Under the pieces are notes generated by a model. It saw nothing but the letters and a program-made list of their open reading frames with translations. It searched no databases and had not been told where the DNA came from. Of a DNA stretch of 64,000 nt, positions 5,738 through 55,801 are shown piece by piece. Origin of the DNA: Pelagomonas calceolata (Eukaryota; Sar; Pelagophyceae; Pelagomonadales; Pelagomonadaceae); NCBI GenBank assembly GCA_918797485.1, contig CAKKNE010000005.1:4588001-4652000 (forward strand), written 5' to 3'. Position numbers and translations under genes: made by a program. How positions within the stretch are numbered: the stretch's first letter is position 1; every line of letters starts with the position of its first letter.

Positions 5738-6924
5738 TTACGCATCCTCGTGCAAGAACCGCTCGAACTCCGTCCCGGTCAGCGTCTTCACGACGACGTT
5801 CCAGTTCAGGACCGTCTCGTTCAGGCGCTTCGAGTGGATCTTGAGCACCGCGCGCGCGCCCGGGCCGTCGACCTCCCGCGACGTGTCCAACGCACTGGGG
5901 CACTTCGAGCCGCCGCCCTGGAGCCAGTTCGCGAGCTGGGCGAACGCCGTCGCGTTCGCTGATAAATCTTCGTAGGCCACCATGCGCGTCTCGAGGCCCG
6001 CGGCCCGCGCCTTGTCCCGGAGGTGGCCGAGCTCGCTGTAGGCGTTCTTCACGTTCTTGAGCTGCCGGAGCATCTCCCACCGACCGCTTGTGTCGAGCTT
6101 GACCTTTTTCTTCGCAATGCGCTGTAGGTCCTCAGGTTTTGGGTGCGCGTCGTGAGTCTTCCAGTTGGACGCGCGAGAGACCTGTGTGGAAATCAACCAG
6201 TGCGTCGGGTGCTCGGTCCTGGCTCGGTCGAGCGGTGAGGAACCCGCCATAGCGCAGGCGTCGCGTCGATGGCGTGGAGGACGACGCGACGATTCAGCAC
6301 GAACGTGCCGCGGCCGGGCCGTAATTTTTTTTGATTTCAGCGCAGCGCGAGACGACGGTCGCGAGGTGGTTCCGCCGTCGTAAAAAGAGCACCTTGACCC
6401 CCCTGTGCTTCCACATGCGCTTGAGCCAGGGCCAGTCGCGCATCATACCCCCGACGCCAATTTTAGATCGGGGCCCCGGCTTGCCCGCATTGAGCAGGTA
6501 CTTCCAGCCGACGACGGCGGGCAGGGACGAGCGATTCTGGCGCGCGGCGAAGTCGCGGACTTCGCTTCGAAACTGCGTGGGGAGCTGCGTCGGTGGCGTA
6601 GCAAGATTTTGAAGTCGGACGCCGGCCGCGGACCTTCTTAAACTTCTCCGAGCACTTGTGGGGCTTCTGCTTTTTGTCGACGTCGGACCCGTAGAGCGTC
6701 TTCAGGCACCGGACACGTGAAGACTCCGTCCAAGTGAAGCCCTTGTGGTCGAGGAAGAGCTCCGTGCCCGTGGCGATGCACGACGAGTGCTTCGAAAGCT
6801 CGCTCATGACCCACGTGCTTCCCGTGCGCTGCGTCGCCAGTAAAATGAAGTGGGCCGTCGGCTCCGCTCGCTCGGCGACGACCGCCGCCGCCGCGGCGAG
6901 GAGCAAAAATTTGTGAGGTTTCAT
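5738..6924 (-). CDS. Sulfotransferase-like secretory protein (three exons)
   Basis: Signal peptide MKPHKFLLLAAAAAVVAERA, then the PAPS-binding 5' loop LLATQRTGSTWV, and a 3'-phosphate-binding-like segment VLFLRRRNHLATVVSRA. Proposed exons are 6924-6634, 6584-6354 and 6181-5738, giving 321 aa. The second intron (6353-6182) is an introner; removing it joins ATV to VSRASNWKT in frame, exactly as carbohydrate sulfotransferases read. The first intron (6633-6585, GT-AG, 49 nt) is inferred from a frame change between EKFKK and LPTQFRSEV; a one-base sequence error is the alternative. Likely a Golgi sulfotransferase of the Stf0/NodH-like superfamily; acceptor unknown. Confidence 0.75.
6182..6345 (-). 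mobile_element. Introner element IE-1 (intron 2 of the sulfotransferase)
   Basis: Left end CTGTGTGGAAATCAA, right end TTGATTTCAGCGCAG (the right TIR has decayed). Flanked by target copies CGAGAGAC (6174-6181) and CGCGAGAC (6346-6353), 7/8 identical. On the coding strand the intron is 6353-6182 (172 nt): donor GT from the upstream target copy GTCTCGCG, acceptor AG from the TIR end CCACACAG. The interior holds the GATGGCGTGG module common to the family. Confidence 0.85.
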
Positions 6925-7043
6925 TGTCTCATGTTTACGCCATTAACAGATCTCAGCTCTTTCATGAGCGATCATAGGTGACACGATAGTGACGAATTTG
7001 GTCTCCGCGCGCTCCTGGTCTCGCGCTGCCTCGCGCTGCCAAA

Positions 7044-7067
7044 GCTAGCGGCCTGTAAGACACTAGC
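7044..7067. repeat. CTAG near-palindrome, promoter-associated
   Basis: Reads GCTAGCGGCC, then TGTAAGACACTAGC: the consensus form. It lies in the 307-bp gap between the divergent sulfotransferase (start 6924) and DnaJ (start 7232) genes. Just upstream is a short TCGCGCTGCC tandem duplication (about 7021-7040). Confidence 0.8.
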
Positions 7068-7231
7068 CAGGCGCTCCAGTTTTGGTGATAGCTTTTATTT
7101 CACGCCACGACTGCGTTTATACGCAGCTGTTGTGTGTTTCCTCCACCTCATTGGTCATAGCAGTCGTCGGTGCTATCTGCGAACCTCGGCACCTCGATTC
7201 GACACAGCACACGTAAGACTGCGGAGGAGCG

Positions 7232-8341
7232 ATGCTGCCGCGCGCCGGCCTCCGGACGTTGCTCGCGGCGCGGCACCGCGTCGTCCGCGGCGCGCCGTCG
7301 CCGCGCGCGACGCTGCACCACCTCGCCAGGCGGCCGCCGCGCCGCGCGCCCGCGCCGTACCATCGCGTACTGTCGTCAAAAGCAAAAAGAGATTACTATG
7401 AAGTGCTCGGCGTGCCGCGGAGCGCGACCGCCGCGGAGATCAAAAAAGCCTACCGCAAGCTCGCCAAGGAGCACCACCCCGACGCCGGCGGCGACGCCGC
7501 CAAGTTCCAGGAGGCTAGTGAAGCCTACGAGGTGCTGAGCGACACGGAGAAGCGCCAGGGCTACGACGCGTACGGCCACGCGGCGCAGGACCTCGGGGGA
7601 GGCGGCGACCCCTTCGAGGCCTTCCGCCAGGCCTTTGGGGGCCAGGCCGGGGGCTTCCACTTCCACCAGCAGGGCGGCGGCCAGGAGCCCTTCGAAGACT
7701 TGCTGAACGAGTTTTTCGGGGGCGGGCAAAGGAGGCGGGGTCCGCGTCGAGGCGCGGACCTCCAGTTGACTTTGAGGCTATCCTTCATGGAGGCGGCTCG
7801 AGGCGTGCAGGAGAAGACCTTGGAGTGGCACGAGGTCGCGCGCGACGGTAGGAGAGGCGATCGGAAATCTGTGGATGTGCGCGTGCCGGCCGGCGTCGAC
7901 TCGGGCATGCAGATCCGCTTGAGCGGCAAGGGCGGCCAGGGCGACCCCGGGGCGCCGTCGGGCGACTTGTTCGTGCAGATCGAGGTCGAGCCGGACTCGT
8001 ATTTCGAACGGGACGGTCCGGATATTCATGTGGCACTGGAGGTGCCCTTCGCCGACGCCGCGCTCGGTGCGACGGTCGACGTGCTGACGCTGGACGGCAT
8101 CGTCCAGCTCAAAGTGCCCCCGGGCTGCCAGCCTTTATCGAAGTTAAGGTTGCGGGGCAAGGGCCTGCCGTCGGTCGATCGGCGCGGGCGAGGCAACCAG
8201 ATCGTGACGGTCCACGTGACCGTGCCCGAGGTCCTCTCGCCGCGCCAGAAGGAGCTCCTCGAGGAGTTTAGGAATGAAGAGCCCGCGGAGGAGTCGCCGG
8301 CGCAGCGGGCGCTGAAGCGGTTGCGGGGCTTCTTTAGTTAA
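7232..8341 (+). CDS. Organellar type II DnaJ (Hsp40) co-chaperone
   Basis: 369 aa. The first 50 residues are Arg/Ala/Pro-rich without acids, as in a mitochondrial presequence. The J domain spans about 53-115, with HPD in [10 protein letters not shown] Gly/Phe-rich linker follows ([20 protein letters not shown]), then the two beta-sandwich substrate domains ([45 protein letters not shown]-like and [19 protein letters not shown]). The four CxxCxGxG zinc-finger motifs of type I DnaJ are absent; where they should be (about 190-212) is only a short charged link. It therefore stimulates Hsp70 ATPase but lacks the zinc module. Single exon. Confidence 0.88.
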
Positions 8342-8551
8342 CTTGAATTTAGTGTGTCACATAACGGCTCGCGTCGATGGCGTCCAAGGACTCGGACGTC
8401 CAAGTGGGCCATTGAAGTGGCGTCCCAAAACGGCGTGCCGCGTCGATCGTGTCGGGACCGGTGGCGTCCCAGTCAGGGTGGTGTCGGCGGTGTTAGTTCA
8501 CTTAGTTATGTTAATGTCTCAAACAAATGGGGCGGCGGAGGACAGGCGCCA
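8342..8551. other. Convergent intergenic spacer with solo GATGGCGT motifs
   Basis: 210 bp between the DnaJ stop and the UBAC2-like stop. It contains CGTCGATGGCGTCC near 8373 and related fragments resembling introner interiors, but no TIRs. No gene or clear terminator was seen. Confidence 0.35.
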
Positions 8552-9379: not shown

Positions 9380-9597
9380 CGCGTCGTTTGCGTGTCACTT
9401 GCTTACCGCTGCGACGGCGCGCGCCGCCAGCGAGGCCGGCGGCCCAGGAGGCCTTTTTGTTACTTTTGCAGCTCGCGCTGGTTCCGCGCTCAACGCCTCA
9501 CGCTGGTGGCGGAGGAGAGTAGTGATGCCAAGCCGTGGCGTGTGTCTGTGGCGCGTGTTTAGCGCACGCGCGGCTGGGGACTTCGGCTTGCTTGTTG

Positions 9598-10511: not shown

Positions 10512-12851
10512 TTAGTGGCTCGGCAGCCGCCGCTGCTTCACCGGCGCCGGCCCGACGTCGAGCGGCTTCGCGTTGCGGCGCCCGCGCGCGCTCCTATCTA
10601 AAACCACGGTCTGGGACCAGGTCGACCGCGCCGACGGCGCGAAGCTCTCGACCATGGAACAGAGCTCCTGCTCGACGAGCGACACGTCGAAGGGGTCTAG
10701 ACTTTCAAAGCCGACGCTCATGTCCGTCGACGCCGTCCGCGCGTCGAAGCCCCGCTCCTCCAGACTCGCCAACAGTGTTGACGGTTCGTCCTCGAAGCCC
10801 GCGCCACCCGCGTGCGCCAGGTAGATGCGCGACGCGCCGTGCGTCGCGGCCCGGTCCACGATGTTATCTAACAGCCTGTGTAGAAATCGAAGTGTCGCGA
10901 CGTGCACCCGACTCACTGCTTGACTTCCACACGGCTCAATGCGTCGCCGTCGGCACCGTGCCCTGCGGCGTCGGGCAGACGACGTACCTCCTACCGGGCA
11001 CGCACCCGAGCGTCTCGGCCTCCCTTCGAACATGCGCGCAGAGCACCTTCTCGTCGCCGGGGAAGAGGGCCCCCCGTAGCGTCGCCGCGAGCGTCCGCAC
11101 GCGCTCGGACCGGACGCGATACCGCGCCGCCTCCCGCAGCAGGTCCTGCTCGCCGTCGACGACGAAGAGGGGCGCCCTGCGTTCGTATGCGGCGTCACAC
11201 GGCGGACACGCCATCGCCGCGGACGACACGTCGAAGGGAGGACGCTGAAGACACACAACGCCACGAACACGGCGCCGGCCGCACTAAAACCTTTAAAAGC
11301 TTGAGCCACGTCCGCGGCCCGCGAGTGCGACCGCACGAAGGCCTTCTTCCGCGGCGCCTGGTCGAAGCCCACATTATGTAAAGCTTTGGACAGCCGCTCC
11401 TTATTTAAGGGAGACGCGAGGATCTTGGGCGACGTCTTCCACAACTTTATTACATCCTCGTCGACGAATTCTACAGAAGTGAATTCTCGTAGTGTCCTTT
11501 CGTCGAAGACGTCCCCGAATTTCTTTTTTTGAGAACGCGTATCTCGATAGTGGGGGTCGAAGTACCGAGGAAGTAATAAAGTCCTCCCGACGAGTTTCGC
11601 CACCGTCAAGGCTTCCAGCAGGCCCTCGAACTGGTTGTTCGGGCCGAACGCTAATAAAGGCACGAGGTACTGGCGTTGTACTGTAAGGCGTCGATGCGGC
11701 ACATCACAAGCCTCCCGCGCCTCGGACAACAAACACTTGCGCCCGTGCTCGTTGCCCAGCAACAGGGGCGTGTACGTACCTTCACTAAACCGCGCAAAAT
11801 CATACAACGCGAGCATCCGGGGGCAGTTGTACCAGAAGTTCTGGCACCCATCGAACGAACCTTGGTCGAGATGTTTCAGCGCAGGATATGTCCCCGAGTC
11901 GCAGCACGACGCACTATCCACATCATGAGTCAGATCGCGCACCGACGGCGCGACGCCGAGTTCCGGTAGAGGGTCATCATCTTTCGCGAAGGTCTGCAGT
12001 TTATGGGGTAGGATAATCAGTGTTGGATCTTCATCCATCGCCTTTCCTAGACTTCGGATGCACCGCGCGTGCAGGACCAAGTCCGCGTCGTTGTACATAA
12101 CGTAGGCATAGTCCTCTCCTTGTAACCAGCTTTCACAAATCTCGTTCCTATAGACGTGTCGCTCGCGCCTCGCTCTTTGTATCAAACACCTCTTGAGCGT
12201 CGCTTGCGTCGCTCGAGGTAAATAGGGCAGCTGGCACTTCTCGAGGTTCAGGTTGTGGACCACAACTCGCTCCAGACCTTGTAAAGCTTCTCGCGCTCTC
12301 ATAGCGTGGGCCTCGTCGCACGTCGCCACGATGACTCTGGATAAGGCATCGGTCATGGACATCACAACAGCTCTCAACATTTGTGAAGACAGTGCTTGCC
12401 AATGTTTTGATGAAGGAACGCCCCCGAAGGGCACGATGCCGATGGAGCGTTCCAGATATTGATGAGAGAAGGTATGTCGATGCGTATAGCCATCTAGTCT
12501 AGAAGTGATGTTCCCGAGGAACGTGTCCTGGCCCTGTTTCCCGGGCGCCATCTTGGTGAGGTAACTGAAGTGCTCCACCGAAAAGTCGAAGAAGTCCCGC
12601 GTGAGCGCGGGCGTCGGTTGTAATCCGTTGACGCCTCCATACACATGCGCGTGGACGGCACCTTCGATGTTGCCGATCTTCCTAGGCTCGAATTTCATAA
12701 AGCGCTTCGCCGGCTGGAGCCAGGTCCCGGCGTATATGTCGGGCCAGGCGTAGCCAGTGCCGGGGTCGAGGGGGTTCCGCCGCTCTACTTTCACGACGGG
12801 GGAGCACTGCTGCCCTGCGGCGGCGGCGACTAGCCATAGGGCAGCCCACAT
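10512..12851 (-). CDS. Glycosyltransferase / GDP-fucose O-fucosyltransferase-like two-domain protein
   Basis: Proposed exons 12851-11310, 11244-10943 and 10875-10512 give 735 aa. MWAALWLVAAAAG is a signal peptide; the frame also runs 10 codons upstream but without ATG. The N-terminal domain (to about residue 370) looks like a GT-A glycosyltransferase: RVIVATCDEAHAM, and DYAYVMYNDADLVLHA with a D-x-D-like DAD. After the linker the O-FucT signature appears: PLLAFGPNNQFEGLLEALTVAKLVGRTLLLP. The C-terminal part ends with FEDEPSTLLASLEERG and STWSQ. The last intron (10942-10876) is a decayed introner with a GC donor; the exon before it is read as APLFVVDGEQDLLRE. The first intron (11309-11245, 65 nt) is inferred from a frame change and its donor is less certain. 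Confidence 0.7.
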   Translation of the reverse strand: MWAALWLVAAAAGQQCSPVVKVERRNPLDPGTGYAWPDIYAGTWLQPAKRFMKFEPRKIGNIEGAVHAHVYGGVNGLQPTPALTRDFFDFSVEHFSYLTKMAPGKQGQDTFLGNITSRLDGYTHRHTFSHQYLERSIGIVPFGGVPSSKHWQALSSQMLRAVVMSMTDALSRVIVATCDEAHAMRAREALQGLERVVVHNLNLEKCQLPYLPRATQATLKRCLIQRARRERHVYRNEICESWLQGEDYAYVMYNDADLVLHARCIRSLGKAMDEDPTLIILPHKLQTFAKDDDPLPELGVAPSVRDLTHDVDSASCCDSGTYPALKHLDQGSFDGCQNFWYNCPRMLALYDFARFSEGTYTPLLLGNEHGRKCLLSEAREACDVPHRRLTVQRQYLVPLLAFGPNNQFEGLLEALTVAKLVGRTLLLPRYFDPHYRDTRSQKKKFGDVFDERTLREFTSVEFVDEDVIKLWKTSPKILASPLNKERLSKALHNVGFDQAPRKKAFVRSHSRAADVAQAFKGFSAAGAVFVALCVFSVLPSTCRPRRWRVRRVTPHTNAGRPSSSSTASRTCCGRRRGIASGPSACGRSRRRYGGPSSPATRRCSARMFEGRPRRSGACPVGGTSSARRRRARCRRRRIEPCGSQAVSRVHVATLRFLHRLLDNIVDRAATHGASRIYLAHAGGAGFEDEPSTLLASLEERGFDARTASTDMSVGFESLDPFDVSLVEQELCSMVESFAPSARSTWSQTVVLDRSARGRRNAKPLDVGPAPVKQRRLPSH
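10876..10934 (-). mobile_element. Decayed introner IE-2 with GC donor
   Basis: Ends CTGTGTAGAAATCGA and TTGACTTCCACACGG. The target copies CTAACAGC (10868-10875) and CTCAATGC (10935-10942) match at 5/8. On the coding strand the intron is 10942-10876 (67 nt): the upstream target copy reads GCATTGAG, so the donor is GC, and the acceptor is TTTCTACACAG. Only this choice joins GTVPTA to LLDNIVDRA without a stop. Confidence 0.7.
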
Positions 12852-13878: not shown

Positions 13879-15303
13879 TTAGGTAGAGGGCGACACCTTC
13901 GCGTAGCCCTCGAGCGGCGAGTGGTCCTCGGGTCGGAGTGCTGGAGGCACGAGCCCCTGGTGCAGCCGCCGCAGCATGACGCCGTCCATGAGGTTCGCCG
14001 CGGCGCGACCGAATTTCTGAGATGAAAAGGGCGACCCATATCCATAAACGACCTGTGTGGAAATCAACCAGTGGCTCGGTGGAGCCAGGCGTCGCGTCGA
14101 TGGCGTGGAGATTTCCACACAGTAAACGACGTCGTCGCGGATCGCGTTCAGGTAGCGCCACATGTCCCGTTCTTCCGTTTCCGTGACATCCCGCACGGCG
14201 TCCTCGTAAGCCTTCGTGGCGTCCTCGTACAGGAGCCTCTCGTCGACGCGCGGAAACCGTGTATAATCAACATACGTGTCGCGGAACGGCAGGTGCGGGT
14301 GCTCCTTCCCAGACACGAACCAGCCCCAGCCCTCGTGGCACGGCGCCTCGCACCGGCCCCACAATCTTGTACCGACGATGAGCGGGATGCAATCCGCGAC
14401 AATCGCATCGAAGATGCGCCTAGACGTCGGCGTGTCGCCGCACATGACCAAACAAAAGTCTGCCACGCGCATACTATGCGCGAAGGCGTCCTCATCTAAT
14501 AAACGTCGTCGGTGGGATTTGATATGTATCGACGACCGCGGGACACTTTCCAGCCCAAGCGCCTTGCTCCGGTCGCAGCCCGACCACTGCGCGGCGTTCG
14601 GTCTTCTATGGGCCGCGAAGAAGACGGAGATCTCGTGATTATGTAGTTGTGTCGACGTGCCGGCCAGCCTTGACGCGTCCACTACATATGGCGCGGGGAC
14701 CATCCTTCGTAGAGTTTCCTCCTTCCTATCGCCGCCGACCCAGGCCGGGTTCATCTCGAAGACCCCGAAATAACTCTGTTCTAAACCGGCGTGGAGCTTC
14801 GGGAATAGCAGTTGCCTTGCCACTCCGGGATTGATCGACGAATACCCGAAGACGTGGTCGGCGCCCCGGTGGCGCTGGAACCACTTGGAGCTTCTTAGTT
14901 CTTCGATTAAAGCTGAAAGTCGTTCGTCGTGGCCCTGCCCATCAGAATTTTTCGAGAGGGACAGATACGCGGGCACGAAAAACAAACTCGCCGCCTCCGG
15001 ATCCGTCGTGCGGCGTTTGTCGTTGAGCAACGCGCGGTGGACCCAGACCTCGACCAGTTCCTCCGCGATCTTGTAGTGTCTTCTTTGTTGAGGCAGCGCC
15101 GTCGTGATCGCGTCGAAGGCGCCGCCCGCATAGACGTAAAAGGAGTAGTTGCCGACGGCCGCTTGGATACGCTGGCGCTGCTCGGCGTAGGTCGCGTGGG
15201 CTCCCTCGAAGTGGGAGCGGTTCAGCTGGCGCTGGCCGCGGGCCCAGACCGCCGCTTGGCCGCGGGCTCCATTTGTGATCAGGAGGAGGAGGAGCCCTCG
15301 CAT
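13879..15303 (-). CDS. Exostosin-like (GT47) glycosyltransferase
   Basis: Exons 15303-14131 and 14052-13879, 448 aa. It has a signal peptide MRGLLLLLITNGARG and then the exostosin-type domain: FYVYAGGAFDAI, EAASLFFVPAYLS, HRGADHVFGY, and the C-terminal GT47 core ADFCLVMCGDTPTSRRIFDAI with DCIPLIVGTRLWG (the usual pattern is CL.P.G...S.R..DA...GCIPV). A Golgi type II or lumenal sugar transferase, acceptor unknown. The intron (14130-14053) is a 78-nt introner that leaves the frame open if retained, so a naive translation carries 26 extra residues after RDDVVY. The spliced form reads RDD-VVYGYG. Confidence 0.85.
   Translation of the reverse strand: MRGLLLLLITNGARGQAAVWARGQRQLNRSHFEGAHATYAEQRQRIQAAVGNYSFYVYAGGAFDAITTALPQQRRHYKIAEELVEVWVHRALLNDKRRTTDPEAASLFFVPAYLSLSKNSDGQGHDERLSALIEELRSSKWFQRHRGADHVFGYSSINPGVARQLLFPKLHAGLEQSYFGVFEMNPAWVGGDRKEETLRRMVPAPYVVDASRLAGTSTQLHNHEISVFFAAHRRPNAAQWSGCDRSKALGLESVPRSSIHIKSHRRRLLDEDAFAHSMRVADFCLVMCGDTPTSRRIFDAIVADCIPLIVGTRLWGRCEAPCHEGWGWFVSGKEHPHLPFRDTYVDYTRFPRVDERLLYEDATKAYEDAVRDVTETEERDMWRYLNAIRDDVVYCVEISTPSTRRLAPPSHWLISTQVVYGYGSPFSSQKFGRAAANLMDGVMLRRLHQGLVPPALRPEDHSPLEGYAKVSPST
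14053..14122 (-). mobile_element. Short introner IE-3, perfect target duplication
   Basis: 70-bp deletion form: CTGTGTGGAAATCAA at the left, GATTTCCACACAG at the right, with the GATGGCGTGG module inside. Target copies TAAACGAC at 14045-14052 and 14123-14130 are identical. The intron on the coding strand is 14130-14053, donor GTCGTTTA (target), acceptor CCACACAG (TIR). Confidence 0.9.
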
Positions 15304-27323: not shown

Positions 27324-29800
27324 ATGGCCCAACAACAACTAGCAGACAAGCGCGACCAGTTCGTACGAACCCTCTGGGACCGCGCCGACACGCTGCGGCG
27401 CGGCGAGTTCGACACCGCCGCGCGCCTCGCGACGATAAAGGCGTTGGTAAGAATAGCAGTGCACGAGCAGCCGCTCCGGTCGGCAACGCAGTGCCGCCAA
27501 GTCAAGAGCGTCGGCTCGGCCATCATCGACGTGCTTGCCACAGCAAATGGACCAACCACCACCGAGAACGGGAAGTACGCGTCCGCCGCCGTCGCGATAT
27601 TAGCGGCGCTCCTGGAAACGGAGAAGACGACGATCCCGACGCCGATGCGCGACGTGCTGGATGCAGCATCAAAGCTGCTCGAGAACAACCGCCGCTTCGC
27701 ACCTTTACAACAAATCTGCGCGGCGCCGGCTTCGTGTTCCGCGTGGGAGCAGCTGAAGATCCTCGAGGGCGCCCTGAAGCTTGTCAAGCGACGGCAGCGG
27801 TCGCAGTGCGAGGGCGGCTGCGCCTTCGAGCTCACGGACGAAGGCCGGGACGTCGCGCGGCGCCTCGCGAAGGAGCGGTGCGGGAATAATGAGGAGAGCC
27901 GCGGCGCGCTGCGGGCCTGGGGCGGGACGTCCGCCGACGACGTCGTGGTTTTGGTGGATGATCGCGAGGGCGGCGGCGACCGCCACCACCTCCATTCAAT
28001 TGGCCAGCTCCTGAGGGACAACCGGGCGCCCTTCGAGACGCGGACACTTCCGACGGGATTTGGGGATTACGTCATTGCGCGGAGGAGAGCCCGCGTCGAC
28101 GCAGCGACGGGCTGTGGCCCGCACGTCGCTCCTGTGTTAATAGAGCGCAAGTCCGCCGTCGACGTCGCGGCGTCGCTGAAGGATGGAAGGTGGCAGCGGC
28201 AGCACGATGCGATGAAGAGAGTGGCCCAGCTCGGTGCTTCACGGGCGGAGATCGTGTACGTCATCGAAGGCGACCCGTCGAAGCCTGTGTGGAAATCAAC
28301 AATTGCGTCGGGTGCTCGACGACGCGGCCGTCCTGGCTCGGTCGAGCGGCGAGGAACCGGCATCGCCACGCCATTGAGCAGGCGTCGCGTCGATGGCGTG
28401 GAGGGTGACGCGATGATTCAGCACGAACACGCCATAAATTTTGATTTCCACACAGGTCGAAACACGTCTACCGAGCCTGCGGCTGCGGTTGTCTCGGGAT
28501 AGGTGCCTGCGGCAACCCGAACCTGCAAGCGGTCACGGCCGCCATTTCAGAAAGGGAGCGCGCCGGTGCTAAAATCGTGCGCACGGCTGATCCAAGAGAC
28601 ACAGCGCGCTGGCTCGCCGCCGAGCGCCGGCGCCAGCTCCAGAGCCACTTCCGCGAGGCCGACCGGCCGCCGCCACAAACGCCCGAGAAGCGCAAGAAGC
28701 AGCCCACGCAAGAGGTCTCGCCGCCGAAGCGCAGTACTTCTGTATTGACCGCCGCCGCGCGCGCCGCCTGGACCCGGAGAGATAGGGACGCGCTCGGGCG
28801 CCTGAAAGTTACTGAGCTCAAGCAGCTCTGCGAGTCCGTGGGCGAGATCGCGTCGGGCAACAAGGCTGCTTTAGTTGATCGCTTGCTCACGCCGGCGAAC
28901 CCGGCTTTGCTTGTACAAAGGAAGCGCGCCGGTAAAAGAGTACCGCGAGACCGCACGTGCAACTACGCGTTGCTGTGCGCCTTAGATGCGGCCCAAGAAC
29001 CTTTGACGAAGGAGCGGTGGATGGCCGCGGCCGAAGCGACGGGAATTGCCAACGTCTCTTTGTACGAAAAGTCGGGCCCGATGGCTTACGACGGCTGGGC
29101 GGGCGTCGGCGGCGACCTCACGCAGGGCGACCCGCCTCTGGTCGTGAAAGAGCGCGGTTCCCGCTACAAGCTGTCGACGTGCGGTGGTGATGATGCAGGG
29201 AAGGCCGTGGCTTCGGCTCTGCACGCGAAGGCGCATCAGCGGGGCTGGTGCGCCTGCGCGCGGCCGCCTGCCCCTGTTCAACCGGTGCGCTTGGAAGCGC
29301 CGGAGCAGGCCATGTCGCCGCTGCACGCGGCGGCTCGAAGGGCGAGAGTGCGCACGCCGGAGACGCGCCGCGCGCCGCCGCCGCCGCGTTCGGCCTCGCC
29401 GCCGCGCCGGCGCTCGACCGCGCCGCCGACGCCTCCCACAACCGCGAGCAAGGCCGCGCGCGCCCGCGGCCGGCGACGGTCACCGGTGCCCGACGACGAC
29501 TCGGACGACAGCGTCCTGGGCTTCAGCCCGCCACGGCCCGCTCGCCCGCCCGCGACGCCGGCGTCGTCGATCATGGATTTGACGACGCCGCGCGTGCCGC
29601 CGTCCTCGGCCATGGACCTCGCGACGCCCGCGCCGCACTCCGGCGCGCAAACGCCGTACTCGAACGCCATGAGCCTCTCGTCGGAGGCGTCGGACGTCGT
29701 CGATTTGACGCGGTTGTCGTCGCCGTCGCCGGCGCGCGCGGCGTCGCCGATCGACCTCATCTCGCCGGCGGCGAGTCCTGCGCACGATAGCCCATCGTAA
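27324..29800 (+). CDS. MUS81: MUS81-type structure-specific endonuclease with C-terminal SAP and second winged helix
   Basis: Exons 27324-28276 and 28456-29800, 765 aa. The N terminus has the MUS81 helix-hairpin-helix (KALVRIAVHEQPLRSATQCR, KSVGSAIIDVL) and winged helix (ASAAVAILAALLE ... CAFELTDEGRDVARRL). The ERCC4 nuclease follows: VVLVDDREGGGD, GFGDYVIARR, LIERKSAVDVAASLKDGRW (the ERK motif), VYVIEGDPSKHVYRACG. After it come a SAP domain (LGRLKVTELKQLCESVGEI) and a second winged helix (NYALLCALDAAQEPLTKERW ... VVKERGSRYKLS) in place of the usual HhH2, then a disordered Ser/Pro tail with repeated MDLTTP/VDLTRL motifs that resemble SUMO-interacting sites. MUS81 cuts branched recombination and fork intermediates, normally with EME1. 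The introner lies inside the nuclease domain. Confidence 0.85.
28285..28455 (+). mobile_element. Introner IE-4 (intron of MUS81)
   Basis: Complete ends CTGTGTGGAAATCAA and TTGATTTCCACACAG, with the internal CCACGCCATTGA / TCGATGGCGTGG hairpin. Target copies GTCGAAGC (28277-28284) and GTCGAAAC (28456-28463), 7/8. The intron is 28277-28455 (179 nt), donor GT from the target copy. Splicing joins EGDP-SKHVYRACG in the nuclease domain. Confidence 0.92.
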
Positions 29801-36873: not shown

Positions 36874-38039
36874 TCAGGTCGGACGCACGGACTTGAGATG
36901 CAACTTCCGTGGCGGGATCGCGAAGTGGAGCACGAGCGCCAGGAGGCCGACCACGAGCGCGGCGACGCCGCCCAGAATCGAAAGCAAGCAGCCGACCGTG
37001 CAGACCTGTCCGTCGAACACGTCGTGGTCCTCGACGGCCTCCGTCATCTCCGTCCGGTAGTTGCCGGCGCCCGCGAGGGCCACGAGGCCGCCTAACATTA
37101 AGCCCAGGCAGAGGACAGCGAAGAGCTTCCCGTGGTGCGGGCGAGGACTCTGCCTGGCCAGGACCAGGGCGGGCACGGCGACCAAAAGCGAGGTCACTCC
37201 CACCACCGTGGTGTCCCGCGCCGTATTGCTGGACGCAACGAGCGCCTCGCAGAACGCGTCGCCGGCGCACTTCTTGTCGTCCGTCTCGAGCGCCTCCGTC
37301 TCTTTCCCATTCTCTGTCTTGACGTGCGCGTTCCAGAGGTCGTACCGTGTCTCGACCTTGGTTGCGTTCAAAGGCATCTCGTATTCAATCGTCATCCAGT
37401 GGCAGTATACTGGCGCGCCGAAACGTGCAAATAACTGGCAGAGGAAGCAGAGGACCGCCACGGCGCCCACGCGAGAGAAGCGCTTCCTCAAGTTAGGATA
37501 CAACTGACCATGCTTTGTGTGCAAACCGTGCTGCGGCGTGCGCGCGTCGACGGGCTGGTGATGACGAGCTGCCTTGACTTTGAGAGGGGAGGTGGCCTTT
37601 TCCCCTTTCCCAAGGAGCCGCACGACCGTCAGCGTGTTCTCGGTCGCGAGGTCGACTTGGATCATGCCTGTGTGGAAATCGACCAGTGAGTTAGATTATC
37701 CACGGGGACAACGTCGCGTCGATGGCGTGGGGCGCCCGAAATTTGATTTCCACTCAGGATCATGCCCGTCGCGGGCGGCTTTCGGACCCGCTCGCTCACC
37801 GCGTGCGCGCCGAAGCGCACCTCGGTTTCGAGGACCGTGCCATTTGGTAGCACCACGGGCGTGAGCCGCACGACGTCCGCCTGGCGCCGCAGGGCCCGCA
37901 GGATCAGCGCGTTGTCCACGTCGCTGTACGGAGCCTGCTTGCCACCCGCGATGTTGGCGAAGCGCGTCTCAGCCGCCGCCGCGTCGAACGATTCCGGTGT
38001 CCGCCGCTGCGGCGAACTGATGATGGCGGCGCCTCCCAT
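36874..38039 (-). CDS. Multi-pass membrane protein of unknown function (two exons)
   Basis: Exons 38039-37766 and 37667-36874, 355 aa. The N-terminal cytosolic half (APYSDVDNALILRALRRQAD; VVRLTPVVLPNGTVLETEVR) continues across the introner into MIQVDLATENTLTVVRLLGK, a TonB/ubiquitin-like-looking fold not recognised with confidence. Four hydrophobic segments follow: RVGAVAVLCFLCQLFARFGA; TTVVGVTSLLVAVPALVLA; KLFAVLCLGLMLGGLVALAG; CLLSILGGVAALVVGLLALV. A lumenal loop (CHWMTIEYEMPLNATKVETR) sits between TM1 and TM2, giving a tetraspan layout, but no CCG or claudin motif is present. The intron uses a GC donor (see IE-6). Confidence 0.65.
37668..37757 (-). mobile_element. Introner IE-6 with perfect target duplication and GC donor
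   Basis: Ends CTGTGTGGAAATCGA and TTGATTTCCACTCAG. Target copies GATCATGC at 37660-37667 and 37758-37765 are identical. On the coding strand the intron is 37765-37668 (98 nt) and the upstream target copy reads GCATGATC, so the donor is GC, with acceptor CCACACAG. Only this restores PPATG-MIQVDLATE. The interior (GGACAACGTCGCGTCGATGG) is shared with IE-7. Confidence 0.9.
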
Positions 38040-38240: not shown

Positions 38241-39453
38241 ATGGCCGTTCCGCGACCAGCACTCGCATGGATTGCAGCGCTCGCGCTTGCCACGGCCTTC
38301 GTGCCGCCGCTGAGGCGACATGCACAGCTCAAGCCCGTTTCATCGACTGCGCGACGACGACCTACATTGTTACGCGCGACCGACGAGCCGCGCAGCGATA
38401 ATGGCACGAGGGACGACGAGTTCGACCTGGAGCCGCGCGCAGCCAAGGACGACGCGCCGACGGCCGCTCTGGCCAAGTCCGACGACGAGACGAACCCCTA
38501 CTACAAGGTCGTGGCTGCGTTATCCCCAGGCGAGATCATCGGGCGGTTCGCGGCGACGGCGCCGCCGCGCGTCCAGGACGCCGTCAAACAAACGATCATG
38601 GGTCTGCTCGGCAACGCGGGCTCCTTCGCCCTCGAGACGGCGACGGTGACGACGTCGGAGAAGCTCGCGAACCTCATGTTCCAGCTCCAGATGACGGGGT
38701 ACATGTTCAAGAACGCCGAGTACCGGTTGAGTTTGTCGCGGAGTCTGCAGCCGTGTGGAAATCAACCAGTGAGTTAGGTTATCCTGAGAAATATTGCGTG
38801 AGCCTTCGTGAGCCTCCAAGCCATCGAGCCGACGCGGGCACGGGGACAACGTCGCGTCGATGGCGTGGAATCGCCACGCCATCGCGCAGACGCAGCTACG
38901 GAGACAACGTCGCGTCGATGGCGTGGGGCGCCCGAAATTTGATTTCCACACAGGTCTGCAGGACGTGCCCGCGCTCATGCCGGGCGAGGACGACAGTTCT
39001 TCCCTGCCGCCCGTCGAGGGCCAGGTCAAGGTCAACGTCATGGGCGAGGAGGTCGCCATCGACGCCGACGCGTACATGGCCGAATTACGGGAAGAGGTCG
39101 AGACGCTGCGGACGGAGTTGGATAGGGTCGAGGAAGCTCGAAGGGAGGCGACGCAGTCCGATTTATTGGCGTACGTGCGCTCGCTGCCGGAGCAGCAGAT
39201 GGCGGCGCTCACGTCGGAGATTACTGATGATGTTTTGGATGGCATGAAGAAGCTCGTCTATTCCATCATGAAGGGCATGGGCACGTCGTCCGTCGAGGCG
39301 AACACGCTGCTGCAGCAGTCGGGGAGCGCGATGGCGCAATTATGCATGTGGCAGCTCGCGATCGGCTACAACTTGCGCGAGCTCGAGGTGAAGAACGCGC
39401 TCTCGAAGCAGCTCGAGGCCGGCGATGATGGCGGCGACGCCGTCGACGCGTAA
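38241..39453 (+). CDS. Plastid DUF760-family protein
   Basis: Exons 38241-38742 and 38954-39453, 333 aa. The leader MAVPRPALAWIAALALATAF, then VPP, is a signal peptide with an ATAF cleavage site typical of stramenopile plastid import. Two DUF760 blocks follow: QTIMGLLGNAGSFALETATV ... LANLMFQLQMTGYMFKNAEY (residues about 115-165), and DVLDGMKKLVYSIMKGMG ... LCMWQLAIGYNLRELEVKNA near the C terminus. DUF760 proteins are conserved chloroplast proteins of land plants and algae without a defined reaction. The introner splits SRS-LQDVPALMPG between the blocks. The central part has a helical acidic segment (ELREEVETLRTELDRVEEAR). Confidence 0.8.
38751..38953 (+). mobile_element. Introner IE-7 with duplicated interior
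   Basis: Ends CCGTGTGGAAATCAA and TTGATTTCCACACAG. Target copies GTCTGCAG at 38743-38750 and 38954-38961 are identical. The intron is 38743-38953 (211 nt), donor GT from the target copy. The interior holds two copies of GACAACGTCGCGTCGATGG, near 38843 and 38901, so the element has an internal duplication relative to IE-6. Confidence 0.92.
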
Positions 39454-43632: not shown

Positions 43633-44804
43633 ATGGCCGCTGCCGTGGTCTTCGAGGGCGCGACGGGCATCCCCAAGCAGCCCGGCGTCACGCACCCCAC
43701 GCCGGGCCTGCTCCATCAGATGACGAGCACGCCCTGGTTGGTCGACAAGCTGAGACCGCGCCGGATCGGCACGCTGCTCGTCTACGTGCGCCTGCCGAGC
43801 GGCCAGCTGTCGTCCTACAAGGTCGAGTCCAAGGACACCGTCGCGTCGCTGAAGAAGAAGGTCGCGGCGACGGCGGTCGCGCGCGCGCTCGAAGAAGAAC
43901 CGGCGACGGAGGCGCTGCTCTACATGGGCCGCGAGTTGGGTGATGACGAGACCTTCGAGGCGGCGCTCGTCGCGGACCGGGCCATGTTGGTCAGACCGGG
44001 CCGCGCGCGCGCGTCCGCGGACGATTTGAAGGCATTTGTATCGTCCCGTGCGGAAATCAAATTTCGCGGCGCCTTTGTTGCCGCAACAGCGCGTTGACCT
44101 CCACGCCATCGACGCGACGTCTCCTCGATGGCGTCGAGAAATGGACGCCGCGCGCAACCGTTGATGAGGAACTTGGTCGTGCCCGTGGCGTAGATCAATT
44201 TCTCCTCGCCTGTGTGGAAATCAAGAGTTCACGGCGCCTCGTGCTGAATCGTCGCGTCCACCTCCACGCCATCGACGCGCCGCCTGCTCGATGGCGTCCA
44301 CATAGGTCAAGACGACCAAGGCGCCCTCGACGGACACGCTATACGAGCGCATCAAGCGCGAGCCGAAGCGCGGCCTCGACCTCGACTACGACGTCCGGTC
44401 CTGGCCTGTGCGGAAATCAAAATTTTACTGCGCGTTCGTGCTGAATCATCGCGTCGTCCTCCACGCCGTCGACGCGATGCCTGCTCGATGGCGTGGCAAT
44501 GCCGGTTCTTATCCGCTCGACCGAGCCAGGTCGGCCGCGTCATCGCGGAGAAATGACTTAGTGAAGAATTATCGGGTGCACCCGACGCACTGGTTGATTT
44601 CCACACAGGTCCTGGCACTACCTCTACAAGCCCTACGCCCTGTACAAGCAGCCCGTCGACGGCGTCTCCCAATACCAGAGCGCCGAGTACGAGCTCACGG
44701 GCGACCAGGCCTGGCGCCGCGACTACTACTACGACGGCCCGGGCGACCAGGCCGTCGTGAACAACGCCTACGCCATGGAGCACGCGTGCGAGGAGACGGA
44801 GTGA
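43633..44804 (+). CDS. Ubiquitin-like-domain protein interrupted by two introners
   Basis: Exons 43633-44037, 44306-44397 and 44609-44804, 230 aa. Residues about 45-120 form a UBL-like fold: GTLLVYVRLPSGQLSSYKVE, TVASLKKKVAATAV, LLYMGRELGDDETFEAALV. The C-terminal half (TLYERIKREPKRGLDLDYDV; SWHYLYKPYALYKQPVDGVS; WRRDYYYDGPGDQAVVNNAY) is Tyr-rich and not recognised. Both introns follow the introner rule; the exon between them is only 92 nt, and the frames join as KAF-VKTTKAP and DVR-SWHYLYKP. The 92-nt exon is shorter than either flanking element. Confidence 0.75.
44046..44305 (+). mobile_element. Composite introner IE-8
   Basis: Intron 44038-44305 (268 nt). It opens with CCGTGCGGAAATCAA after target-like GTATCGTC and closes with GCGTCCACATAG before GTCAAGAC (4/8). 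A second TIR, CTGTGTGGAAATCAA at about 44207, lies inside, so it seems to combine two elements, one right end having been lost. Between them (about 44140-44205) is a non-introner segment whose reverse strand reads EEKLIYATGTTKFLINGC. Confidence 0.65.
44406..44608 (+). mobile_element. Introner IE-9, opposite element orientation
   Basis: Ends CTGTGCGGAAATCAA and TTGATTTCCACACAG. Target copies GTCCTGGC at 44398-44405 and 44609-44616 are identical. The intron is 44398-44608 (211 nt). Its interior runs in the reverse sense to IE-4 (the GGGTGCACCCGACGCACTGG arm is at the right end), yet donor and acceptor follow the same rule. Confidence 0.92.
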
Positions 44805-50227: not shown

Positions 50228-50256
50228 CCCTTCCCCCTACAATTGAATAGTGAGCC

Positions 50257-50969
50257 TTACGACGACGAGGCGTTCGCCTCGGACCAGCTCTTCGTCGTGG
50301 GGACCTGCGTCTGGAGCCGCTCGGCGTACGGCGCCGCCAGCGTCAGCCGCCCGTTCTCCGAGCGGCGGATCAGGCGCCGCGCCGCGTCGGACTCGCTCCC
50401 CTTGGTGCTCTTCCAGGCGGCGCCGAGCCGTTCTAAACATTCCTCACGGCACCGCGAGTGGCTCAGGGCCCGCTTCGTCGTCTGTAGGCCCTCCGCGAGG
50501 TTCCGGCCCTAAGAGAACGCGCCGACGACCGTGAGGGGGAGCGGCTGTTTAGTGGACGTGTACTTGCGCATGAGGACGTTGCCGCCGACCTGTGTGGAAA
50601 TCAACCAGTGTGTCGGGTGCACCCGATAATTCTTCACTAAGTCATTTCTCGGCGATGACGCGGCCGTGCTGGCCCCGTCGAGCGGTGAGGAACCGGCATC
50701 GCCACGCCATCGAGCAGGCGGCGCGTCGATGGCGTGGAGGTCGACGCGGCGATTCGGGACGAACGCGCCGTAAATTTGATTTCCACACAGCCACCGACGG
50801 CGCCAACGGCGGCGGCGAGCGCTAGAAGACCAGCAAACTTGAAAGAAATCGGCGCGTCGTCGTCCAGGAAGTGGGGCTCTTTTCTTTGGCCGAGCGGCGG
50901 GCTCCGCGTCTGCGGCGACGCGTGGGACCGGCGCGAGTGCTTGTGCTTTTGCTGGTGGGGCCGAGGCAT
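50257..50969 (-). CDS. Small single-pass membrane protein with introner
   Basis: Exon 1 50969-50799 encodes MPRPHQQKHKHSRRSHASPQ ... FLDDDAPISFKFAGLLALAAAVGA, a basic start and one membrane helix. The introner IE-10 is next. Downstream sequence continues as VGGNVLMRKYTS and, after a probable second intron ending TTCTCTTAG near 50512, as GRNLAEGLQTTKRALSHSRC ... TLAAPYAERLQTQVPTTKSW to a stop at 50257. The donor of that second intron is uncertain, so exact protein length is not given. No family recognised. Convergent with the DUF3472/Kazal gene, 29 bp apart. Confidence 0.55.
50590..50790 (-). mobile_element. Introner IE-10, full-length form
   Basis: 201 bp, ends CTGTGTGGAAATCAA and TTGATTTCCACACAG. 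Contains the long arm (GGTGCACCCGATAATTCTTC, GACGCGGCCG) and the CCACGCCATCGA / TCGATGGCGTGG hairpin. Target copies CCGCCGAC (50582-50589) and CCACCGAC (50791-50798), 7/8. The intron on the coding strand is 50798-50590, donor GTCGGTGG. Confidence 0.9.
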
Positions 50970-51727: not shown

Positions 51728-53579
51728 ATGGGTGACAAGCGCTCGGGCGCCCGGCCGCGCCAGCCGAGCCAGGGCGGCTGCCTCGTCGTCGCAGCGCTCG
51801 TCTTGATGGCCTTCCTCTACGCCAACAACCCGGCAGTGCAGGACGCCGACGACGGCATCGCCCTGCGGCTCGCGCGCGTCGCTGAGCTCGACGTCGAGCT
51901 CCAGGGCCACGCCGCTTTAAGAGATGCGGCCCGCAGCGACGTGGAATTGGCGCGGGCCCAGGCGGAGCACATCGAAGCGCCGCCAGAACCGCCGCCACCA
52001 CCTCGGCAACAACGGCGCGAGGTATTAACCACGAAACCGGAGTCGCAGAAGGACTATAGGGGATACACCTTCTGGTCCTCCGACTTTCATATAAGCCCCA
52101 TCGCCGACTTGAAGGACCTCTTCGCGCCCATGGGCATGCGCATCATCGATGAGTCGTTGTCCGGCCACTGTCACCTGAAGAAGACGTGCTCGCGGAACCT
52201 CAAAGTGATTACTAAACAAAATGGTATCACGCTAGGACAGTGCCCCAACCAGTTGCGGCGCAAGTTCTTCGAGGCCTATGTTAATGATGCTAGAATGAGA
52301 AGTGTCGACGCGTTCTTATGTCATCATGCTGCTGGTTTGTGTGAAGCGTTCATGCCGTTCAACAAGTCGCTGATCGTCGTCGCTTCCACCAGATACGAGA
52401 TCGGCCGGCATGATCCTAGAAGGTGGAAGGCGTGGAACGCGAACCTCAAGGCCATCGCGGCGCATCCCCGCAATGTTGTGGCGGCGAACAACCGCTACGA
52501 CGCGGAGTACGTCAAGTACTTTACTGGTTTAAGTCATGTGCCGGTCCTGCCGAATTATTGTGGGTGGCGGTGTGGGAATCAACTTCCAGGCGCGCTCGTC
52601 GTCCCCGTGACTGCGTCTGCTCGATGACGTCGACGTGACGTTTCGCTGTAACAGCGTCTGCTCGATGGCGTGGAGATACCACGCCATCGGCGCGACGACG
52701 TCCCAGTGATTGTGTCTGCTCGATGGCGTGGAGATTCGACGCCATCGGCGCGGCGTCGTCTGCTAACTCACCGGTTGATTTCCACACGCAGGCGGATATA
52801 CGGGCGTAACCTACAACCCGACGCGACGACAAATACTAATAGGGCCAGGACGAGGCGTCAAGGACCACTTCGTCCAGCAGCTTGATAGCGCGGCAAGAAA
52901 TAAACGATTCCAGGGCCAACAACTCCAATTCAAGCGAATACGGGACCTCTACCCGCACTTCGAATATAGCGATTTAGCAGCCCACCCTTGTATCGTATTG
53001 ATCCCCTACCAAGTTTCATTGATGTCGATTTTCGAATATTACCGCATGGGTATACCGATGTGGGCGCCTTCACCGGAGTTATTGGCGCAGTGGCAGCTGA
53101 AGTACCGCGTCATGAGCGAGCGGACCTGGGATCTAGTCAGGAAGAAGCGGCCCACACGTGGAAGTCCTCTACCGAGAGCGCCCGGTGCTTCCCACAGACA
53201 CGACCCGAACGACGAGTTCGACATAAAGGCAATAGCCTTCTGGATCAAGTACGCGGACTTCTACGAGTGGCCCCACATTTCTACGTTTACTTCGTTCGAC
53301 GATTTGGTACAGCAGCTGACGGCTCCTTCGTTGGATCTGCGCGGCATGTCGCAGAAAGTCATCGCGTACAACGAGGAGATGGTCCGCGACTTGAAGAGCG
53401 AGTGGCGGTCCATCTTCGCGAAGATGTTCCGTGGGCTGCAGCCCGCGGCGTCGGAGCCGCGGGAGCAAAAGCGGAACTACGACGAGGCGCTACTCGCGAA
53501 GTACGGCGCGCGGCAGTCCGACCGGTGCGTCGGTGACGCGTTCGATGGGGCCGCTTCCGATTGGTTGGTTCGTCCTTAA
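51728..53579 (+). CDS. Type II membrane glycosyltransferase-like protein (two exons)
   Basis: Exons 51728-52559 and 52792-53579, 539 aa. A short cytosolic N terminus (GDKRSGARPRQPSQGG) precedes the anchor CLVVAALVLMAFLYANNP, then a coiled Ala/Glu stem and the lumenal domain from about residue 110: TFWSSDFHISPIADLKDLFA, FFEAYVNDARMRSVDAFLC, NKSLIVVASTRYEIGRHDPR. The introner splits VPVLPNYCG-YTGVTYNPTR. Exon 2 continues ILIGPGRGVKDHFVQQL, HPCIVLIPYQVSLMSIFEYY and MGIPMWAPSPELL, the C-terminal nucleotide-sugar-binding half of a GT-B-like fold. Topology fits a Golgi glycosyltransferase; exact family not assigned. Confidence 0.7.
52568..52791 (+). mobile_element. Introner IE-11 with internal repeats
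   Basis: Left end CGGTGTGGGAATCAA, right end TTGATTTCCACACGCAG. The intron is 52560-52791 (232 nt), donor GTGGGTGG at the expected target position; the downstream 8-mer GCGGATAT matches at 4/8. The interior contains two copies of a unit with TCTGCTCGATGGCGTGGAGA and CGCCATCGGCGCG (from about 52650 and 52708). Confidence 0.8.
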
Positions 53580-53975
53580 GTTTTGGGTTTTGTGCTTCCT
53601 GTATCTTTTCCGGTTGCGGTGGCGGCGGCGCGGCCTTGGACGCGCGTCAATCGAGTGTTAAGGGGCGTTGTAGGCGTGTCTGCGCGTCTGTGGCGGGTGA
53701 ATAAGGGTCTCCCACGCAGTTTGAAGCCCTGAATTTTAAACCTAGCGTAATTTAAACCTCTAGAATTGAGAGCTGACTGAGCATCAAACCGCTATCGCGC
53801 CGTACGCCACCGCTACGCACGCACACGCTACGTGCTCGTTGTCACAGCATCTTGCCACCGGTGGCAGTGACCTCCTAGCTCCGGACGCGCCACCTCGCCT
53901 CCGTTGCCAAGTGCAGCCAGTGCCCGCGTGCAACTGCTACCCGCCAAGACGCCGTCGACGCGCCAGCCAACAACC
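53580..53975. other. 396-bp tandem intergenic region
   Basis: Between the type II membrane protein stop and the coiled-coil start. Two TTTAAACCT words (near 53737 and 53752) and CTAGAATTGAGAG stand out from the GC-rich background. No CTAG palindrome of the usual form, no gene. Confidence 0.4.
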
Positions 53976-54773
53976 ATGATCAGACGACGAGTCCTCGCCC
54001 TGGCCCTCGTGGCCTTCACCGGGGAAGCGCTCCAGGCGCCGTCCACGGGGAGACTCATCCACCGGCACCTCGAGACGAGCGCCACGTCCAAGGTCCAGAC
54101 GCCGCGCGTCGACCTGTCCAAGCACGTGCAGCCCACGGCCGCCGAGATTTCCGCCGCGTTCGCCGAGACGCTCGTGAAGCAGCATGAAACTAGACTAAAA
54201 ACGGACAAGAAGCATGCGCGCGACCTCCAGCAGGCGCAAGCTGTCACAGATGAGGTCCAGGCGTTGCTCGATGAGACGCGCCAGGCCTTCCAAGAGTCCC
54301 TCGCGAAGACGCACGAGGCGAAACTGGAGATGCAGAAGGAGCATGCTGCTCAGCTCAATGCATTGCAGAGCGAGCTGCGCGAGACGCAAAAGGCGTTCGG
54401 CGACCAGTTAGTGAAGGCCCACGAACAAAAGATCAACCTCATCAACCAGCACTCCGTCGAATTAAGACAAGCCGACGCGCGCACGGACGCCGTACGGGAG
54501 GAGATGCAGGAGGTCCAGGCGGCCTTCACGGACTACATGGCCCGGAAGCAGAACGAACTGATGGAGCGCACCACGTCTTTACAGAAGGACGTCGATTCTG
54601 CTAGATCGGAGGCCGAGGCGAAGCAGGGCGAACTTGATCAGATCCAGGAGGCCTTCAACGAGCACACCCAACAAACCGACGACCTGATCGAAGCGCAAGG
54701 TGACGAACTGCGGAAAGCGCGCGAGACGCTCCAGGCCGTCGGGGCGTCTGCCATTGCGGCGCTGAAGGAGTAA
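53976..54773 (+). CDS. Coiled-coil protein, probably plastid or secretory targeted
   Basis: 265 aa from ATG 53976. MIRRRVLALALVAFTGEALQ is signal-like, with AL at the likely cut site. From residue 50 to the end the protein is one long coiled coil built of about 45-residue repeats: ETLVKQHETRLKTDKKHARD, ESLAKTHEAKLEMQKEHAAQ, DQLVKAHEQKINLINQHSVE, then more divergent copies. Gln, Glu, Lys and Ala dominate and Pro is absent. Structural role inferred; no family assigned. Single exon. Confidence 0.65.
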   Translation: MIRRRVLALALVAFTGEALQAPSTGRLIHRHLETSATSKVQTPRVDLSKHVQPTAAEISAAFAETLVKQHETRLKTDKKHARDLQQAQAVTDEVQALLDETRQAFQESLAKTHEAKLEMQKEHAAQLNALQSELRETQKAFGDQLVKAHEQKINLINQHSVELRQADARTDAVREEMQEVQAAFTDYMARKQNELMERTTSLQKDVDSARSEAEAKQGELDQIQEAFNEHTQQTDDLIEAQGDELRKARETLQAVGASAIAALKE

Positions 54774-54998
54774 AAATACAAGGAAATTACTATAGACAAC
54801 TAGTCGCATCGATGGCGTACCTGCGAGGGCCGCGCCGATCGGAGAAGCGCACGCTATCGACGCGACGTGCAACGACGACGAGGTGGGCGTTCTCAGGGGT
54901 AGTGACAGGTTTTGTCGACAGGCGTGGATTCGGTTTTTCAGTATGAATAGACATCAACGAACGGTGTGACGAGAAAACGAGGACGCCGCGGCGCGCGG
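54774..54998. other. Convergent spacer with inverted GATGGCGT-like words
   Basis: 225 bp. GCATCGATGGCGTACC (54808) and GCACGCTATCGACGCG (54849) are inverted copies of the introner hairpin arms without TIRs: a solo or decayed interior outside a gene. Nothing else seen. Confidence 0.45.
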
Positions 54999-55801
54999 CT
55001 ATTGGGGCGGCTGCTGGACGAAGACGGGGCCGGCCTGGTGGTGGACCATGTACCACCGCCCGTCCCTTCTTTCAAACACGTTGATGGCCTCGAGCGCCGA
55101 CGGCTCGCCCTCGGGCGCCTCGTTGCACGTGACCCAGGCCGCCGAGCCGCGCAGGACCTGCGTGGAAATCAAAATTTTACGGCTTGTTCGTGCTGAATCA
55201 TCGCACCGTCCTCCACGCCATCGACGCGACGCCTGCTCGATGGCAATGCCGGTTCCTCGCCGCTCGAGCGAGCCAAGACGGCCGCGTCATCGCCGAGAAA
55301 TGACTTAGTGAAGAATTGTCGGGTGCACCCGACGCACTGGTTGATTTCCACACAGCACAGGACCACGCGCTGCCGCTGTGCCTCGAGCTTCGGCATGCCG
55401 CCGGCGCTCGAGAAGAGCGCGCGCCAGCTGTTCAAGACCAAATCGGCGCCCGAAATCAGCGGGTGGCCCGGATGTACACACGTGACGTCGTCGCTGTCGC
55501 TCCAGACCGCCTTCATCTTCGCGACGTCGCAAGACTGGAAGGCGTCGTAGAAGGCCGCGTTCGCGCTCAGCACGGACATCTCGGCCGACATCCGCGACAT
55601 CCCGAGCTTCTCGGCCAGTTCTTTTTGCTCGTTGGGCTCGGTGGACGCGGCGATGGCGTTTTCCAGGCGCTCGACTTCTAGCACGGGATCGGTTTGTTCA
55701 CTGCTGCGCCGTCGCGTGCGTGGTGAGGGCCTGGGGTGGGCGTACTGAAGGGCGCTCGCTGCGGCCGCGTAGTAGCAGAGAAGGATGCGTCGGCGGTGCA
55801 T
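54999..55801 (-). CDS. SnoaL-like (NTF2-fold) protein, probably organelle targeted
   Basis: Exons 55801-55364 and 55157-54999, 198 aa. Leader MHRRRILLCYYAAAASALQY with ASA-L, then a basic stretch. From about residue 75 an NTF2/SnoaL-type domain: ANAAFYDAFQSCDVAKMKAV, WSDSDDVTCVHPGHPLISGA, VLNSWRALFSSAG, and after the introner RGSAAWVTCNEAPEGEPSAL, NVFERRDGRWYMVHHQAGPV. The domain is complete only after splicing across IE-12 (QRQRV-VLRGSA). Such proteins are often small-molecule isomerases/hydrolases or binding proteins; the substrate is unknown. Plant homologues of this type are chloroplast proteins. Confidence 0.8.
55158..55355 (-). mobile_element. Introner IE-12
   Basis: 198 bp, ends CTGCGTGGAAATCAA and TTGATTTCCACACAG, interior closely like IE-9 (AATTTTACGG, TTCGTGCTGAATCATCGC). 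Target copies CGCAGGAC (55150-55157) and CACAGGAC (55356-55363), 7/8. The intron on the coding strand is 55363-55158 (206 nt), donor GTCCTGTG, acceptor CCACGCAG. Confidence 0.92.

Follow-up and report, generated by a model that had tools for sequence, protein, structure and literature searches.

The stretch of DNA analysed here (the window) is a 64-kb piece, C5:4588001-4652000, of the genome of the pelagophyte Pelagomonas calceolata. According to passages of Guerin et al. 2022 (PMC9481584), the assembly has 32.4 Mb of nuclear sequence in six contigs, to which the contigs of the plastid and the mitochondrion are added; the genome searched in this work amounted to 32,445,274 bases in 8 contigs. 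Twelve elements of 59-260 bp with terminal inverted repeats (TIRs) are present in the window, each lying between two copies of an 8-bp target. All twelve were found where a previous sequence-only reading of the window had placed them. That reading counted ten interrupted genes, but our gene models give 11, with the elements at 44046 and 44406 sharing one. On the coding strand the upstream target copy begins with GT or GC (hereafter GY) and the element ends in AG in 12/12 cases, so the upstream copy and the element together are predicted to form an intron, with the second copy in the exon. The two copies match at 8/8 positions in four elements (14053, 37668, 38751, 44406) and at 7/8 in four more (6182, 28285, 50590, 55158), the same counts as claimed before, and at 5/8 in one (10876) and 4/8 in three (31773, 44046, 52568). 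The elements are given below, with a second range that includes the donor-side copy.

6182-6345 (164 bp; 6182-6353 with donor-side copy GTCTCGCG), minus strand: introner, exon copy GTCTCTCG, match 7/8
10876-10934 (59 bp; 10876-10942 with donor GCATTGAG), minus strand: short introner, exon copy GCTGTTAG, match 5/8
14053-14122 (70 bp; 14053-14130), minus strand: introner in an exostosin-like (GT47) gene, both copies GTCGTTTA, match 8/8
28285-28455 (171 bp; 28277-28455), plus strand: introner in an ERCC4-domain (MUS81-like) gene, donor GTCGAAGC, exon copy GTCGAAAC, match 7/8
31773-31840 (68 bp; 31765-31840), plus strand: worn short introner in the TDP1 gene, donor GTGCTCGT, exon copy GTCGACGC, match 4/8
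37668-37757 (90 bp; 37668-37765), minus strand: introner with a GC donor, both copies GCATGATC, match 8/8
38751-38953 (203 bp; 38743-38953), plus strand: introner of a second interior type in a DUF760 gene, both copies GTCTGCAG, match 8/8
44046-44305 (260 bp; 44038-44305), plus strand: composite, donor GTATCGTC, exon copy GTCAAGAC, match 4/8
44406-44608 (203 bp; 44398-44608), plus strand: introner in the same gene as 44038-44305, both copies GTCCTGGC, match 8/8
50590-50790 (201 bp; 50590-50798), minus strand: introner, donor GTCGGTGG, exon copy GTCGGCGG, match 7/8
52568-52791 (224 bp; 52560-52791), plus strand: worn introner, donor GTGGGTGG, exon copy GCGGATAT, match 4/8
55158-55355 (198 bp; 55158-55363), minus strand: introner in a SnoaL-like gene, donor GTCCTGTG, exon copy GTCCTGCG, match 7/8

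The three elements with 4/8 copies add little, because their ends are worn and the right boundary was set with the AG in view. The ends of the TDP1 element are badly worn, and it was located through the FIPSTPG clue of the sequence-only reading. The coding strand at 50590 is less certain than the others owing to a short open reading frame (ORF) and disagreeing flank scores.

The bulk origin of introns is an old question, and the donor rule can be tested here on both strands of one insertion. A total of 43 elements was compared: 21 lie in the window or in stretches sampled at regular spacing, and 22 were fetched by their TIR, the latter being biased to young copies. The first set of 32 distinct elements came from the window (12), from an even sample, 200 kb drawn at regular spacing from the initial 3 Mb of contig 1 (9), and from TIR-fetched loci (11), after dropping repeats of one place and a second worn element in locus L030. 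Contig 2 contributed 11 further elements, taken from the first ten places in its list of perfect TIRs and including an unplanned second element in locus L094. The coding strand was scored by codon usage in the 240-base flanks, without the use of the splice letters. The 33 long ORFs that served to train the codon table came from the window and the even sample, and some of them may contain tested elements. Codon usage set the strand in 42/43 elements and ORF length in the remaining one, the intended L094 element, in which both strands read GY and which was judged by donor and ORF length only.

On the coding strand, all 43 elements have an upstream copy that starts with GY (12/12 in the window and 31/31 elsewhere), with 30 GT and 13 GC donors, whereas the opposite strand reads GY in 12/43 (28%), somewhat above the 17.5% background. 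The acceptor is AG in 43/43. Thus both the coding-strand GT/GC start and the terminal AG, claimed by the sequence-only reading for the window, hold there and in the elements found elsewhere. The first 32 elements comprise 23 GT and 9 GC donors with AG in 32/32, and the opposite strand reads GY in 6/32. On contig 2, a GY donor was found in 10/10 scored elements and, as GT on the longer-ORF strand, in the intended L094 element, making 11/11. GY occurs on one strand only in 31 elements, and this is the coding strand by codon usage in 31/31. Such a two-strand comparison makes it easier to distinguish selection for splicing from the choice of target by the transposase. The orientation of the elements relative to the gene is 17:15, with 11 of the 43 unassigned, and orientation as the cause of the GY start was rejected on account of this mixture.

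The genome-wide search for copies and their 8-bp flanks, which had been proposed together with the original reading, supports the same register. The TIR 15-mer TTGATTTCCACACAG occurs 1562 times (772 + 790) against 0 for the backward control, and perfect-TIR pairs 190-219 bp apart occur 158 times against 0 for the control, which excludes chance as the source of the elements. Rough extrapolation from the 12 elements of the window and the 9 of the even sample, leaving out worn copies, suggests two thousand or more copies in the genome. Among the 1562 exact ends, the 8 bases before the TIR start with GT in 645 and with GC in 342, and AC stands at positions -2/-1 in 647. GT at position -9 was found in only 46/1562, making GT at -8 14 times commoner. 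A mixture estimate assuming half-and-half gene strands, made on 100 listed 8-mers of the 645, all from contig 1, gives donors of about 75% GT and 19% GC, and a GY frequency at the non-donor end of about 32% compared with about 17.5% in the genome background. The target copies of the 43 elements match at 8/8 in 23 and 7/8 in 15, that is, at 7/8 or better in 38/43. TIRs of about 15 bp together with such fixed 8-bp target copies characterize miniature inverted-repeat transposable elements (MITEs), and introners are recognized by a multitude of similar copies at unrelated sites in genes; the sampled host genes belong to different Pfam families wherever any family matched. A second interior type with the same introner ends occurs at 38743-38953 of the window and at L017:832-1020, and perhaps also at 37668 and 52568. 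Since the ends are shared by more than one interior type, more than one subfamily probably depended on the same transposase.

The acceptor appears to have left a footprint in the TIR. The A of the terminal AG (TIR position -2) is changed in 0/32 acceptor-side TIRs but in 9/32 donor-side TIRs (Fisher p 0.002), although this p value is generous because the AG guided the placement of some worn ends. The same comparison in the 21 window and even-sample elements gives 0 against 7 losses (p 0.009). Mismatches over the whole TIR show no difference between the sides (36 vs 30). The terminal AG of the TIR is thus preserved only on the side where it serves as the predicted acceptor.

The predicted joins were also compared with protein families. 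A Pfam scan (E 0.05) of all 11 window genes revealed three in which a domain extends at least 8 residues on both sides of the join, namely TDP1 (Tyr-DNA_phospho), ERCC4 and SnoaL_3. The TDP1 join reads FIP-STPG and aligns without gaps to the solved TDP1. The sequence-only reading had taken family motifs as confirmation of the joins. This stands for TDP1, the MUS81-like ERCC4 gene and the SnoaL gene, where the joins lie inside the domains, but not for the supposed sulfotransferase, as no Pfam family matched the 6182 gene at this threshold; nor was there one for the 10876, 37668, 50590 and 52568 genes. The listed DUF760 stretch barely reaches the join in the 38751 gene, while the exostosin match and a below-cut-off ubiquitin-like match in the 44046/44406 gene lie away from the joins. 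Elsewhere, 18/20 spliced ORFs were scanned (L013:2454 and L039 were omitted because their frames look non-coding), and a domain crosses the join by at least 8 residues on each side in 3/18: a sulfate permease, Exo_endo_phos2 and DUF2854. Three further domains meet the join at their edge, one of them below the cut-off. Restoration of the frame is not independent evidence, as removing the element and one copy always restores it.

Therefore, based on the coding-strand GY start (43/43 vs 12/43) and the one-sided retention of AG, which favour the transposon model of the sequence-only reading, we propose that the elements are very probably non-autonomous cut-and-paste DNA transposons acting as introners, which would take their donor from the target copy and their acceptor from the TIR, with selection removing the insertions that lack GY. 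A transposase acting in trans would insert the MITE-like element, with its TIR of about 15 bp, in either orientation and duplicate the 8-bp target. The upstream copy of the target would become the start of the intron and would need GT or GC as its first two bases. The 3' end of the element, TTGATTTCCACACAG, would supply the AG acceptor, in both orientations because the ends are inverted repeats, and perhaps also a branch-site-like TTGAT; this pentamer fits the yUnAy branch-site motif and is a putative branch site. The spliceosome would then take out the upstream copy together with the element; with the second copy left in the exon, the message would be the same as before the insertion. Insertions without GY in the coding-strand copy would be purged by selection.

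Several observations weigh against this proposal. The spliced ORF length favours the other strand in 2/10 contig-2 elements: at L094:1146-1291 the favoured opposite strand reads CC, and at L089 it also reads GT. Codon scores of the upstream and downstream flanks disagree in 4/32 and 1/10 elements and were settled by their sum. Only 5/11 contig-2 elements discriminate between the strands, because both strands start with GY in 6/11. The target copies match at 5/8 or less in 5/43 elements, three of which have boundaries placed with the AG in view, and in the 16 window and even-sample elements with copies of at least 7/8 the loss of AG is 0 vs 3 (p 0.23). In addition, no autonomous partner with the same ends was found by searches with PF05699, PF18758, PF10551, PF21787 and PF12762, TIR pairs more than 1200 bp apart not being searched genome-wide. 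Finally, the splice junctions are predictions from DNA.

The same point would suit a reading in which the elements are unspliced, their genes are decayed or wrongly modelled, and composition accounts for the GY pattern. We consider this highly improbable, since GT is 14-fold commoner at -8 than at -9, the AG is conserved asymmetrically, and coherent frames and family domains continue across the joins. Spread through RNA, in which an excised intron is inserted by reverse splicing, has been proposed for introner-like elements of fungi and would agree with the high similarity of the copies and with the location of the sampled copies within genes. However, it predicts a single orientation and no target copies of this kind, whereas 8-bp copies, TIRs and a 17:15 orientation were observed; hardly any weight is left for it. 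The target copies, the TIRs, the two interior types with common ends and the mixed orientation all fit transposition as DNA.

A transposase that itself prefers GYNNNNNN, making the donor mainly a by-product of target choice with little role for selection, deserves somewhat more attention but is also improbable. The far end of the 100 listed GT 8-mers (of 645, contig 1) is 51% G, 72% R and 53% C compared with 31, 52 and 28%, and this G-R-C enrichment suggests a dyad-like trace of target preference. The estimated 32% GY at the non-donor end and the GY on the other strand in 6/11 contig-2 elements point the same way. However, a symmetric transposition complex should be blind to the coding strand, yet GY is found in 43/43 on that strand and in 12/43 on the other. 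Within the first set of 32, GY on the other strand is limited to 6 elements, and 4 have a donor copy ending in RC. Selection on insertions made by a DNA transposon is thus the preferred explanation of the strand bias.

The donors were compared with the requirements of U1. In a list of 100 introner GT donors out of 645, positions +3 to +5 are like those of random genomic GT sites (p 0.19, 0.20 and 0.88), and the U1 matches at +3 to +6 average 0.65 against a background of 0.74. These 100 donors, set against genomic GT, thus show no sign that U1 pairing past GY is selected for. The genome contains two U1 small nuclear RNA (snRNA) genes, at L084:1501-1672 and L085:1501-1678 (E 1.4e-14 and 9.7e-13), which are divergent and score under the Rfam gathering threshold but possess the canonical 5' end AUACUUACCUG. 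This raises the question of how donors without any U1 match past two letters can serve a spliceosome whose U1 end is canonical. One possible answer, which we put forward tentatively and regard as somewhat doubtful, is that in an estimated two thousand or so introns whose donors share only GY the spliceosome accepts a two-letter donor, and the 15-nt 3' module of the transposon end defines the intron; a transposon could therefore mass-produce introns. The gene for the splicing factor U1-C (zf-U1) itself holds two introners, L030:677-880 (204 bp) and the worn L030:978-1056 (79 bp). The latter together with its 8-base copy (87 bases) has no stop and could be retained as 29 codons. A tandem array of GGAGAAACTCGACAAACC directly follows one U1 gene, at about 1750-2080 of L084.

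The mechanism is already known for Aureococcus, and the P. calceolata elements are a well-resolved further case. For Aureococcus anophagefferens, Huff, Zilberman and Roy reportedly proposed a DNA-transposon mechanism in 2016, in which one splice site comes from the target copy. The introners of this species, likewise a pelagophyte, are described in the accounts consulted as short TIR elements with direct repeats and a length of about 210 bp; the likeness between the two species is one of descriptions, not of compared element sequences. Passages of PMC9481584 (Guerin et al. 2022) give about 210 bp as the characteristic length of the A. anophagefferens introners and report, for P. calceolata, an intron-length peak near 210 bp that is characteristic of introners. 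Unlike the present analysis, the passages on P. calceolata in that paper mention neither TIRs nor target copies and contain no rule for the donor and no test by strand. Parts of Gozashti et al. 2022 (PMC9860276) describe lineages other than this one in which the target copy provides the donor. According to these, the introners of Symbiodinium microadriaticum have, as here, TIRs, an element-borne acceptor and a target-copy donor, but target copies of 4 bp instead of 8 bp. Family 4 of Aureococcus sp. has an 8-bp target duplication as found here, but it has both splice sites in the element and adds 12 bp to the transcript, whereas the elements here are predicted to add nothing. The introners of Amoebophrya, as far as described in sections of PMC7789003, resemble the present ones in having inverted repeats and short direct repeats at the exon border, but the repeats are 3-5 nt and the splice sites mostly non-canonical, compared with GY-AG and 8-bp copies here. 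In the portions consulted of the literature on introners, Pelagomonas introns, transposases and U1 (including PMC12768974, PMC10228655, PMC6142364 and PMC13326754), no account of these ends or of the donor rule in P. calceolata was found; an earlier description is possible in Supplementary Note 3 of PMC9481584 or in Huff et al. 2016.

Of the five transposase families searched, only hAT (PF05699) matched, with one match; the KDZ, MULE, P-element and Merlin families gave no match in the genome, but the KDZ (PF18758) and P-element (PF21787) searches are uninformative on absence because they matched no genome at all. The hAT match belongs to a single, apparently complete element of 3651 bp (L083:4550-8200, C4 about 4,499,549-4,503,199) with a long transposase frame, ends CAGGGCAGCAGAAGGGCAAG and the target site duplication (TSD) TTGCTCGC on both sides. 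It was rejected as the source of the introners, whose ends start CTGTGTGG, as against CAGGGCAGCAG and the TSD TTGCTCGC in the hAT element. Viral carriage was rejected as well: two strict introner patterns matched 0 viral contigs in a scan from which records near the window's own genome were perhaps excluded. The bare TIR 15-mer matched 43 viral stretches once each, and loose pairing was found in 4/43, about the chance level by a rough estimate.

The composite 44046-44305 is not one clean element, as it contains two element 5' halves, at 44046 and 44210. Between the two halves, 44136-44209 of the window contains an antisense frame, EEKLIYATGTTKFLINGC, and is perhaps a captured piece of a gene.

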